A DNA stretch of 64,000 nucleotides, from positions 62,001 through 126,000 of the forward strand of contig JALCRY010000001.1 in NCBI GenBank assembly GCA_022652985.1. Direction: 5' to 3'. The number at the start of each line of letters is the position of its first letter. The first letter of the stretch is position 1. This document shows, piece after piece, positions 41,027-58,005 of this stretch. The DNA comes from Eubacteriaceae bacterium (GTDB lineage: Bacteria; Bacillota; Clostridia; Peptostreptococcales; Anaerovoracaceae). The position numbers and the translations under genes were made by a program. The notes under the pieces were generated by a model. That model ran no database searches. It was not told the origin of the DNA and saw only the letters and a list, made by a program, of their open reading frames with translations.

Positions 41027-41135
41027 TGCATCGGGAACTTTGAATCAACATTTATCGTCTGCATCGGGATATTTGAATCAACCTTTACCGTATGCATCGG
41101 GAACTTTGAATCAACATTTATCGCCTGCATCGGGA
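41027..41135. repeat. Tandem 33-bp repeat, three full copies plus partial
   Basis: TGCATCGGGAACTTTGAATCAACATTTATCGTC at 41027, 41060, 41093; partial TGCATCGGG at 41126. Confidence 0.95.
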
Positions 41136-41216
41136 TCGGCGGACTTTTGTATTGAGAACTACGGACCATTTTTGCATTGATGTCTATGAATGAATCTATT
41201 CAGACTGCGGAAAAAA

Positions 41217-41419
41217 CAGGAATTTGAAATACGGTACCAATCGCGGAGTAAAAAATATTTTGGTACCTTAAGCAATGGGCTGCAGCGATTGAGCATCCGT
41301 TCAGTGCGACTTTTTCGCTGAGAAAGGCAGCTGTTAGTCATGACTAACTCATGCAGCCCATTGGATAGGGTACCAATCCGAAGGAAAATCCTTTATTGGT
41401 ACCTTATTTGAGTTTCCTG
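41217..41419 (+). repeat. MITE-like structured element, copy A (four GGTACC boxes)
   Basis: GGTACC at 41233, 41262, 41369, 41398; inner arms CAATGGGCTGCA (41273-41284) / TGCAGCCCATTG (41352-41363); outer imperfect arms CAGGAATTTGAAATAC / TTATTTGAGTTTCCTG. Confidence 0.85.
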
Positions 41420-41495
41420 CTTGTGAGCGGGAAATTTTAAGGCCTCTGTGCCGCGAATGCAGCCGGAGCGTCAGGGAAATGTACAGAAACAGTCA

Positions 41496-42886: not shown

Positions 42887-42894
42887 ATTTATCC

Positions 42895-42977
42895 GTAAGC
42901 CGCACAGAATAGGCTTTTGTAAAGTTCAGTATGAACTGCCTATAATGGCGAGACTGGCACGAGGAGGAAAAAATAGA
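42895..42977 (+). ncRNA. Possible L21-leader-type 5'UTR
   Basis: Structured leader between promoter and rplU, including AGTTCA-gta-TGAACT hairpin; assigned mainly by position. Confidence 0.35.
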
Positions 42978-48305: not shown

Positions 48306-48953
48306 ATGAAAAAATATTTCAATAAAGAGTATTTACTGGCCAATAAAGATAAGATCCTGAAAGCCGCTGTGATAGCAGCAGTTATTATTACGGCTCTTGT
48401 TGTGTTTGGCATGAATAACGGTGATGGAGAGGAGCTTGTTCCGGCCGGGACATCTGCTGCGGTTTCCGGGAGCGATGAAGCCGACAGCGAGGAGGACAGT
48501 TCTATTGCTGTTGTGGATGTGTCGGGATGTGTAGTCAGTCCGATGGTTGTCGAATTAAAGAAAGGCAGCCGTATAAACGATGCGATCGAGGCGGCAGGGG
48601 GCCTCACGAAAGACGCTGATATTTCTGCTATAAACAGGGCGGCAAAGGTGAAGGACGGAGATAAGATCTTCGTTCCCGAAAAGGGTTCCGGAGCATCTGC
48701 TTCCGTCAGCAACGTTTCTGACGACAAGAGCAGCGGAAGCGGAGGAGGCGGGATCGCCAACGGCAGGGTCAATATAAATACCGCCGATTCAGCCGAGCTC
48801 CAGACTCTTACCGGAGTGGGACCTGCCATAGCAGGAAGGATCATCGCCTACCGCGAACAGAACGGGAATTTCAGCAAGCCCGAGGATATAAAGAATGTCA
48901 GCGGCATAGGCGATAAAACCTACGAAAAAATGAAAGATGATATTTCGACATGA
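48306..48953 (+). CDS. comEA: ComEA-like DNA-binding protein (SLBB + helix-hairpin-helix)
   Basis: N-terminal TM; VDVSGCVVSPMVVELKKGSRINDAIEAAGG; GRVNINTADSAELQTLTGVGPAIAGRIIAYREQNGNF. Confidence 0.92.
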   Translation: MKKYFNKEYLLANKDKILKAAVIAAVIITALVVFGMNNGDGEELVPAGTSAAVSGSDEADSEEDSSIAVVDVSGCVVSPMVVELKKGSRINDAIEAAGGLTKDADISAINRAAKVKDGDKIFVPEKGSGASASVSNVSDDKSSGSGGGGIANGRVNINTADSAELQTLTGVGPAIAGRIIAYREQNGNFSKPEDIKNVSGIGDKTYEKMKDDIST

Positions 48954-50782
48954 CGGAAGAGAGGATAGAATTGAATAATAAAATTAGACAGATAGCGGCA
49001 GCGGCCATTGCGGCGATATTTTCATTTTCTTCAGCGCTGGTATTTCCCGCGGGAGTATGCGCGCTGACTGATATGGCAGATGCCGCGCCTGTGGCCGGAA
49101 ACAGTTCATTCGGGGAAAACAAGGGAGTATACAGTTCATGGAAGTCACCGGGTCCATATGTCATACCGAGGGAATATGCGGGTAATCTTGCTGAAACAGC
49201 ATCTACGCAGTATGTGCCTTCGATGCAGACGACGGACGAGTACGGGATCGGCAGAAAAGCCACCGTGTTCAGGAATTCTGATCTGGGATTTTCACAGGGT
49301 ATTACGATCACAAATCTTAAATATTTTGATGCTGCCTCAGGAGATTTCCAACTGGTGGACGAAAAGATAACGCTGGAAAACTCACACAGAGCCGCCGGCA
49401 ATACCAGGACAGACAAGCTTTGTCTTTATGCAATAGAGCATACGCCGGATCCTGTCATACATATGTGGGGAGCGGAATCGGTCAAAGTGACAGTTTCTTA
49501 TATGAAGGCGGGGACAAGCACGCCTGCGGCGCTGAATACTGGCCTGACATTAAAGGGTATTGCGCCGAAAACAGGTGTCATGCTGACTTCGCTTTTCAAA
49601 AATACGGCAGTCAGGAATCAGATAGTATCCGCTTCATCGAGGCTGGAATATTTCCGCAACAGCAATGCCGAAAATGTTTTTTACAATCCGGACGAAGCGG
49701 CGCCGGCAGATGATGCCGATACTTCAGTTCAGTATCTGTATAATTCGGCAAGTATATATATGATACTTTTTGACAACAGCGAAAGAAAGATCGATGACAG
49801 CACGGCAATCTGGAGCGGAGCGGCTGTATTTGCAGGCAGTCCGGCAGCAATGGCCAAATCTGAACCTCAGCGGCCGACATTCAGAGTGTCCGATGCGGAC
49901 GAAATGGATGTTGACGCGAACACATACGCAGCAGACGACACGTCGCTGATCTACCGAACGGGCGAATTTGTGAACGGCGGATTTGAGCAGGGTGTCCGCT
50001 GCGGAGATTTCCGACTGAATCAGGCGCTTCCGTCCTGTCTGGAAGTAAAACAGATAAAGGTGCTGCGCGACGGCTCAGATGTGACAGTGCACTTCGATAT
50101 ACAGAACAAAGACAACAACATTTCCGCTGCGGCTAAAAAAGAATATATTACGGGCGGAGATTTCTGCAGCAGAAACGGATCGCGGTATGTGCTGACCGTT
50201 ACTGCGGACCTTTCGCGTGAAGCGGCAGGATCGGCTTTCAACACAGCGAATACATCTATAGTCTTCGAAGCTTCGGGTTCGGTCACAATAGACGGCAGGG
50301 TATATCCGGCCGGCAGCGTCAGGACTTCCGCGCTTATGCCGAGAGCCGCCGCGGGGAAACCGGACAGCGGAAATACAGGCACCGGCACGAATACCGGATC
50401 GGGAAGCAGCTCCGGGACAAATACAGGATCGGGCACTGCTTCGGATGCAGGCGGCAAAGTTGTTCCGGTACCGGGAGTCACGGTAACAGATCAGTCAACG
50501 GATAACGGGAACAGTGACGTTTCCGGAAACGGCAGCGGGAAGGATTCAGGCAAAGCAGCCGGAGGATCGCGCGGTGACGGACAGGCCAAGAGATTAGATG
50601 CGACAGTCAGGGAACTAAAGCATCGCATAGCTGCCAAAACCGGCGCAGCGGGCGGGAGTTCACCGAAGACAGGAGACGAAATGACAGACGTTCAGACGGC
50701 GCTCCTGCTGGCGGTTATTTCTCTGACGTCGATGGGAATACTGGCCGGCGGCGTGAAAGCATCGCGCAGGTCGGACAAATAA
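48950..50782 (+). CDS. Sortase-anchored surface protein with SPKTG motif
   Basis: Signal-like N-terminus; Gly/Ser/Thr-rich linker; C-terminal SPKTGDE + hydrophobic stretch + RRSDK; a downstream alternative start is possible. Confidence 0.75.
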   Translation: MTEERIELNNKIRQIAAAAIAAIFSFSSALVFPAGVCALTDMADAAPVAGNSSFGENKGVYSSWKSPGPYVIPREYAGNLAETASTQYVPSMQTTDEYGIGRKATVFRNSDLGFSQGITITNLKYFDAASGDFQLVDEKITLENSHRAAGNTRTDKLCLYAIEHTPDPVIHMWGAESVKVTVSYMKAGTSTPAALNTGLTLKGIAPKTGVMLTSLFKNTAVRNQIVSASSRLEYFRNSNAENVFYNPDEAAPADDADTSVQYLYNSASIYMILFDNSERKIDDSTAIWSGAAVFAGSPAAMAKSEPQRPTFRVSDADEMDVDANTYAADDTSLIYRTGEFVNGGFEQGVRCGDFRLNQALPSCLEVKQIKVLRDGSDVTVHFDIQNKDNNISAAAKKEYITGGDFCSRNGSRYVLTVTADLSREAAGSAFNTANTSIVFEASGSVTIDGRVYPAGSVRTSALMPRAAAGKPDSGNTGTGTNTGSGSSSGTNTGSGTASDAGGKVVPVPGVTVTDQSTDNGNSDVSGNGSGKDSGKAAGGSRGDGQAKRLDATVRELKHRIAAKTGAAGGSSPKTGDEMTDVQTALLLAVISLTSMGILAGGVKASRRSDK

Positions 50783-50837: not shown

Positions 50838-50877
50838 CCTGTTAAAAAAAGCCGTGAAAAGTTGAACTCACAAAAAA

Positions 50878-51048
50878 GGTACCAATTTGAATAGTTTTTC
50901 TTAAACGGTACCCTGAGCAATGGGTTTGTCACGGTTAGGAATGCCTAACCGTCATGGATTTCTGAGTTTTTGCGGTATGAGCATTTGCACAATCGCTGCA
51001 GCCCATTGGATACGGTACCAGCTAAGGATATTTCTCTGAAATGGTACC
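50878..51048 (-). repeat. MITE-like structured element, copy B (inverted relative to copy A)
   Basis: GGTACC at 50878, 50907, 51014, 51043; arms CAATGGG / CAGCCCATTG; hairpin ACGGTTAGG-AATG-CCTAACCGT (50931-50952). Confidence 0.85.
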
Positions 51049-51086
51049 ATATTTGGGAATCGGCTATATTTACTGACGCCGCAGTA

Positions 51087-51195
51087 CTGCAGCCGCAGAG
51101 AATCAGGCAACTGCGACGGGACCCTGCAGCCGCAGAGAATCCGGCAACTGCGACGGGATCCTGCAGCCGCAGAGAATCTGCCAGCTGCGCTGGGG
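51087..51195. repeat. Tandem 37-bp repeat, about three copies
   Basis: CTGCAGCCGCAGAGAATCMGGCAACTGCGACGGGAYC at 51087, 51124; diverged copy at 51161. Confidence 0.95.
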
Positions 51196-57874: not shown

Positions 57875-57879
57875 AGATA

Positions 57880-57984
57880 TGTAAAAAGCACAACCCAAGT
57901 GATTGGGTGTCGCAAAGCTAAAAGGGTCTAGAGCTATGGGGAATTTTTAATATTTTTTTGTGGTTTTTAGACAGCCAGCTGCCT
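57880..57984 (+). ncRNA. Putative cyclic-di-GMP-I (GEMM) riboswitch aptamer
   Basis: AAAAAGCACAACCCAA-GTGA-TTGGGTGTCGCAAAGCTAAAAGGGTCTA .. TAGACAGCCAGCTGCC; GNRA-capped P1b, CGCAAAGC core, GGGTCTA/TAGAC pairing, AGCCAGCTGCC 3' end. Confidence 0.75.
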
Positions 57985-58005
57985 TTATTATAAGGCAGTT
58001 TTTTT
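57979..58005 (+). terminator. Expression-platform terminator
   Basis: CTGCCTT-tattat-AAGGCAG-TTTTTTTG; 5' arm overlaps the aptamer 3' end. Confidence 0.85.

Follow-up and report, generated by a model that had tools for sequence, protein, structure and literature searches.

Background

Dispersed repeats of bacterial genomes are usually explained as mobile hairpins, the copies of which are near-identical or decaying. REP sequences and REPINs are moved by RAYT transposases; REPINs are intergenic and have inverted paired conserved units around a variable middle of constrained length, their spacers show compensatory changes, and several sequence types can occur within one genome (PMC3116915). Bacterial MITEs are short, non-coding and multi-copy and have inverted ends (PMC10969869), and in BrickBuilt of P. 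gingivalis a minisatellite of one sequence lies within the element (PMC4596501). Among protein-binding sites, matS of E. coli, bound by MatP in the Ter macrodomain, is a single palindromic 13-bp site, with 23 dispersed copies confined to an 800-kb domain (PMC3330122), and the centromere-like parS sites of ParB are palindromic, highly conserved and multi-copy (PMC4368675).

We analysed a 64,000-nt stretch of DNA (the window) and the 2.33-Mb draft genome from which it comes (82% complete, 70 contigs). The genome contains two families of elements that resemble each of these systems in part. In contrast to the usual mobile hairpins, old and diverged copies keep four exact boxes with the distances between them fixed, and they do so in two parallel types, the cores of which differ by 11 bp. 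Family 1 has the intergenic location, the inverted units and the length-constrained middle of REPINs, and the genome likewise holds several sequence types; unlike REPINs, there are only ~20 diverged copies, none of them young, with four boxes, internal dyads and phasing at the level of the duplex, and neither covariation nor a RAYT gene was found. The elements are also short, non-coding and multi-copy with inverted ends, as MITEs are, but they show no target-site duplication or autonomous partner, and they have a fixed internal length and boxes that are invariant in diverged copies. Minisatellites accompany them as in BrickBuilt, but the arrays lie outside the elements and are unrelated in sequence. 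With matS they share the number of dispersed copies and the palindromic layout; however, they are ~200 bp long, are composed of four boxes plus dyads and are absent from a congener. ParB/parS systems are widespread, with parS copies grouped close to the origin of replication, whereas the elements described here, similarly palindromic, conserved and multi-copy, are lineage-restricted and compound. If confirmed, they would provide an example, open to testing, of a nucleoprotein site that is large, phased and dispersed on a chromosome, and a way to find the protein or proteins that read it.

A four-box element in the window and across the genome

The first copy in the window, copy A, occupies positions 41211–41425 (+ strand) with its conserved outer flanks, which extend ~22 bp beyond each outer box; self-BLAST delimits the repeat to 41220–41417. 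Its boxed part (41233–41403) has GGTACC at 41233, 41262, 41369 and 41398, that is, with the 29/107/29 spacing given in the initial annotation. On the + strand, the left box pair, GGTACC-N23-GGTACC (41233–41267), is followed by the 5-nt spacer TTAAG (41268–41272), a G-arm by its last base, and by a near-invariant left core, CAATGGGCTGCAGCGATTGAGC (41273–41294), the family-2 counterpart of which is YACTGGGCTGCAGCGRTTGAGC. Two internal dyads come next, TTGAGC-N4-GTTCA (41289–41303) and GTTAG-N6-CTAAC (41333–41348), the latter present in 17 of the 18 copies with a variable N6. The right arm, CCCATTG then GATAG (41357–41368; on the complementary strand, GATAG reads CTATC, the C-arm), leads to the right box pair, GGTACC-N23-GGTACC (41369–41403). 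The outer flanks are inverted, as reported earlier, and copy A also has the reported CAATGGGCTGCA/TGCAGCCCATTG arms and GTTAGTCATGACTAAC; the dyad TTGAGC-N4-G(C/T)TCA at 41289–41303 had been overlooked. Copy B (50856–51070, − strand; boxed part 50878–51048) has its boxes at 50878, 50907, 51014 and 51043, hence again at 29/107/29, and its core is oriented opposite to that of copy A.

Family 1 has at least 18 copies, all intergenic and non-coding: BLAST, searches with exact patterns and a model trained on the copies all arrive at 18 in the assembled genome; the initial annotation had made its reading depend on further copies and on their spacing. Seventeen copies have four intact boxes, and the eighteenth, on contig C18, has GGTACT in place of one box, so that 71 of 72 boxes are intact, with a single changed base per 432 box bases. 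The spacing is 29/107/29 in 16 copies and 29/106/29 in those of C13 and C18. In the GTTAG-offset-64 subfamily, one nucleotide lost in the middle of the core is accompanied by one gained in the right arm, and the distance of 107 is retained. All 35 GGTACC-N23-GGTACC sites of the genome lie within one of the 18 elements, for a chance expectation that we estimate at ~0.1. When two mismatches in 16 positions were tolerated, the assembled genome yielded exactly 36 box pairs, two per element, and no solo or eroded pair. The window itself has 15 GGTACC sites for 4.05 expected, a count reached in none of 100 shuffles. Together, these excesses exclude chance as the origin of the pattern.

Among the 16 length-matched copies, mean identity is 62% over 171 bp and only 44–50% in the N23 spacers, and it is near random beyond 20 nt outside the elements. 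Thus, the 35-nt units proposed initially stand as box pairs but not as conserved hairpins. A profile of the 36 ends shows conservation falling to background ~22 bp outside the outer GGTACC; reading outward, the conserved flank is TTATTTnGAAwTCAC followed by a T-run ~20 bp from the outer box. The core comprises the near-invariant left part CAATGGGCTGCAGCGATTGA, the dyad TTGARC-N4-GCTCA and the dyad GTTAG-N6-CTAAC. In each copy, one arm ends in C (T in a single case) and the other in G beside CAATGGG, which makes 18 arms of each kind and gives the frame a direction. Both combinations of frame and core orientation occur, from which we infer that the core was probably once inverted between its inverted arms.

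The GTTAG-N6-CTAAC dyad with its variable N6 led us to consider an attC or attP site of a tyrosine recombinase. In attC, RYYYAAC comes first and GTTRRRY last; the half-site order is the opposite here and just 5 bp per half-site are conserved, and this candidate was rejected.

Family 2, built on another box

The sequence model of family 1 and a search with the core pattern revealed another family in this genome, with part of the core in common with family 1. Its layout, TGGTGC-N23-GCACCA twice at 29/96/29 and ungapped, has an inner distance 11 bp shorter than that of family 1, which is about one helical turn. There are at least 13 full copies; of the 13 that were read, eight have four perfect boxes, and genome-wide, copies with four perfect boxes number 12. 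The 52 boxes of the 13 copies include 44 TGGTGC and six TGGTGT, and 50 of them conform to TGGTGY. We dropped the idea that family 2 is decaying, as most box changes are this one C-to-T variant. A search for any repeated 6-mer pair at spacings of 20–40 in ~366 kb from this genome brought up only the two families and one minisatellite, in agreement with self-BLAST. GTATAC pairs at spacing 29, which looked like a third type of box, turned out to be that 85-bp minisatellite.

At L127 17594 (contig C48), a truncated chimaera joins a family-1-like CAATGGG left core to a TGGTGC box of family 2 on one side; its boxes are indistinct on the other side, and it is cut by an insertion sequence. The ends of this insertion sequence, which we take to be IS256-like, are TTAAGTCCATATACTGGTGTAAATTG / GTCAAGTCCATAATGTGGTGTAAATTGC, and it is found at L162 (C22), L164 (C2), L170 (C48), L169 (C53) and L165 (C38). 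Three of its ten assembled junctions lie inside a family-2 box or no more than ~4 bp from one, a fourth is ~50 bp from such a box and one is ~150 bp from a family-1 copy.

Distribution in other genomes

The family-1 pattern was found in none of 148 relatives, one congener among them, and half-element and core patterns gave only chance-like single matches in relatives. The family-2 pattern was absent from all 396 other genomes of the order that were searched. Searches of 85,462 species genomes and IMG/VR with the four-box pattern returned only tandem or low-complexity repeats, and plasmid and phage collections had no match to the element. A family-2 match of viral origin was a tandem repeat, and a weak match in the relative G036 (E 8.7e-4) had no box pair; both were set aside. 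No element was detected in the 154 kb of the congener that we examined. There, tkt and recA are adjacent and separated by ~150 bp devoid of the element, compared with 753 bp in our genome. A single genome, 82% complete, is thus the sole carrier of both families among those searched. Contigs of the congener, G001, end in common sequences of 51–57 bp (L145, L152 and L157 at their 5' ends; L153 at its 3' end and L156 at its 5' end), which are probably mobile elements that interrupted its assembly.

Age and constraint

We used the four-fold sites of recA to estimate the age of the copies. Between this species and its congener these sites are 34% identical, for 25% expected at random, and the N23 spacers of family-1 copies are 44–50% identical for 30–32% at random. 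Similarity above random is thus 21–27% for the spacers versus 12% for recA, which indicates that the copies are old yet uneroded. They look nearly as old as the split between the species and the congener, provided that the spacers evolve more or less neutrally. The closest pairs are only 81% identical in family 1 and 87% in family 2; hence, there are no young copies. One change per 432 box bases in copies of such age implies strong selection, exerted on each copy or through repeated mobilisation.

Putative protein-binding sites as the favoured reading

The combination of a fixed length with variable spacers, an 11-bp difference between families and a lack of covariation suggests that double-stranded DNA is recognised. 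The conserved feature, as judged from the alignments, is duplex sequence and spacing rather than hairpins. We thus tentatively regard the elements, with a confidence that comes close to even, as a lineage-specific dispersed family of directional, putative protein-binding DNA sites under purifying selection. A protein-binding array was among the options of the initial annotation, and it is the one that the invariant boxes at fixed spacing, the drifting spacers, the 11-bp core difference and the missing covariation appear to support best. Next come MITE- or REPIN-like elements, then transcriptional operators and lastly structured RNAs.

In the proposed mechanism, a sequence-specific protein would bind each GGTACC pair, in which an A/T-rich spacer separates two boxes at a spacing of 29 bp, and one or more other proteins would bind the core dyads TTGAGC-N4-GCTCA and GTTAG-N6-CTAAC. 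Both ends might then be held together in one compact, looped nucleoprotein complex, which would explain the fixed inner distance of 107 bp and the difference of about one helical turn between families. Such complexes, present at ~20 sites on the chromosome for each family, would have a role at the level of the chromosome, in its architecture, segregation or recombination, instead of serving adjacent genes as promoters. Absence from all relatives searched, including the congener, is odd for a system at the core of chromosome organisation. The set of elements is probably previously undescribed. It is possible, though we hold this with appreciably less confidence, that it represents a new class of compound directional nucleoprotein sites: a single bacterium would have both a GGTACC type at 29/107/29 and a TGGTGY type at 29/96/29, each with its own putative protein, under purifying selection and with a chromosome-level function.

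Possible mobile elements

The elements might instead be non-autonomous mobile elements, MITE-like or REPIN-like in their population behaviour, a reading that we consider less likely but the main rival. The box pairs would then be binding sites of a transposase or recombinase acting in trans, two box types implying two such enzymes; synapsis of the ends across 170 bp of DNA would fix the spacing, and selection for mobility would preserve the boxes. Dispersal in many intergenic copies, random orientation and absence from relatives, as at the short tkt-recA gap of the congener, suit a mobile origin. So do the long inverted ends, as inverted outer flanks plus box pairs bound an element of ~200–215 bp, the partial sharing of the core between families and the precedent of conserved ends with a length-constrained spacer in REPINs (PMC3116915). 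However, the compensatory spacer changes of REPINs (PMC3116915) are missing, and no hairpin is kept by such changes in family 1. The initial annotation proposed a search for target-site duplications: no consistent direct repeat surrounds the 18 copies, although duplications may have eroded with time. All 36 box pairs belong to short full elements, and no autonomous element with matching ends (up to two mismatches in 16) or orphan end is present in the assembled part of the genome, 18% being unassembled. Young copies, an autonomous partner and duplications are all missing, and decayed copies practically so, which speaks against a simple MITE.

The remark that no transposase lies nearby holds for the neighbouring genes tested. 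A PF01797 search of the genome for RAYT genes yielded two open reading frames, of 163 and 171 residues; from their sequences we take both Y1 transposases to be IS200-type TnpA proteins, and no element of the families is found within 1.5 kb of them. The lack of covariation and of a RAYT gene argues against a REPIN. A mobile origin of the copies would be compatible with the protein-binding reading.

Gene context and possible transcriptional operators

The neighbours of family-1 copies are ordinary genes, among them those for transketolase, RecA, DnaE, NAD synthase, kinases and transporters, and the settings are tandem, convergent (about four cases) or divergent. That the elements are arrays of operators, through which a transcription regulator controls adjacent genes by DNA looping, seems improbable. 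The dyads do have the size and geometry of operators and the location is intergenic, but about four elements lie between convergent genes, the neighbours have no function in common, and core and frame orientations vary freely relative to genes. Neither gene strand nor GC skew predicts the orientation of the frame; since that orientation is random in both respects, a polar replication-fork barrier was also rejected as an explanation for the directional frame. Three pairs of family-1 copies are 7–10 kb apart, and none of the 18 is on contigs C3–C9, the contigs being unordered.

Possible structured RNAs

The least probable reading, a structured RNA or single-stranded DNA hairpin element, has in its favour an RNAalifold consensus fold of −24.9 kcal/mol with stems formed by the boxes and several arm-pair changes that retain G-U pairs, but it is contradicted by a covariation term of −0.32 with two-sided change in only one of 32 pairs, by variable positions of the spacers and of the dyads that pair no more often than in shuffles, by a transcriptional orientation that is not fixed, with about four copies in convergent settings, and by the absence of covarying pairs or of an Rfam match to the element at gathering score.

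Minisatellites and other features of the window

A 33-bp minisatellite of 3.3 copies (41027–41135, identified by TRF) shares the gap of copy A, 98 bp away from it, and a 37-bp one of 2.8 copies (51087–51189, TRF) is found 39 bp from copy B; in both cases, this is an association only. Minisatellite arrays are present in 10 of 16 family-1 gaps, compared with three of 28 gaps devoid of the element and one of four family-2 gaps, and the association is weaker than our first impression. The repeat units near family-1 elements (loci L059–L072) are unrelated to one another and range from 17 to 103 bp. One 85-bp minisatellite family is found at two unlinked places, L067 10154–10543 and L128 3795–4268, and the L128 array holds the paired GTATAC boxes at spacing 29.

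Rfam matches above gathering score in the window are a c-di-GMP-I riboswitch (57877–57986) and a ribosomal protein L21 leader (42887–42965). Upstream of copy B, positions 48950–50782 code for a 610-residue protein, possibly located at the cell surface, that is unmatched in Pfam and has a low-complexity tail, the end of which is near SPKTGDE.
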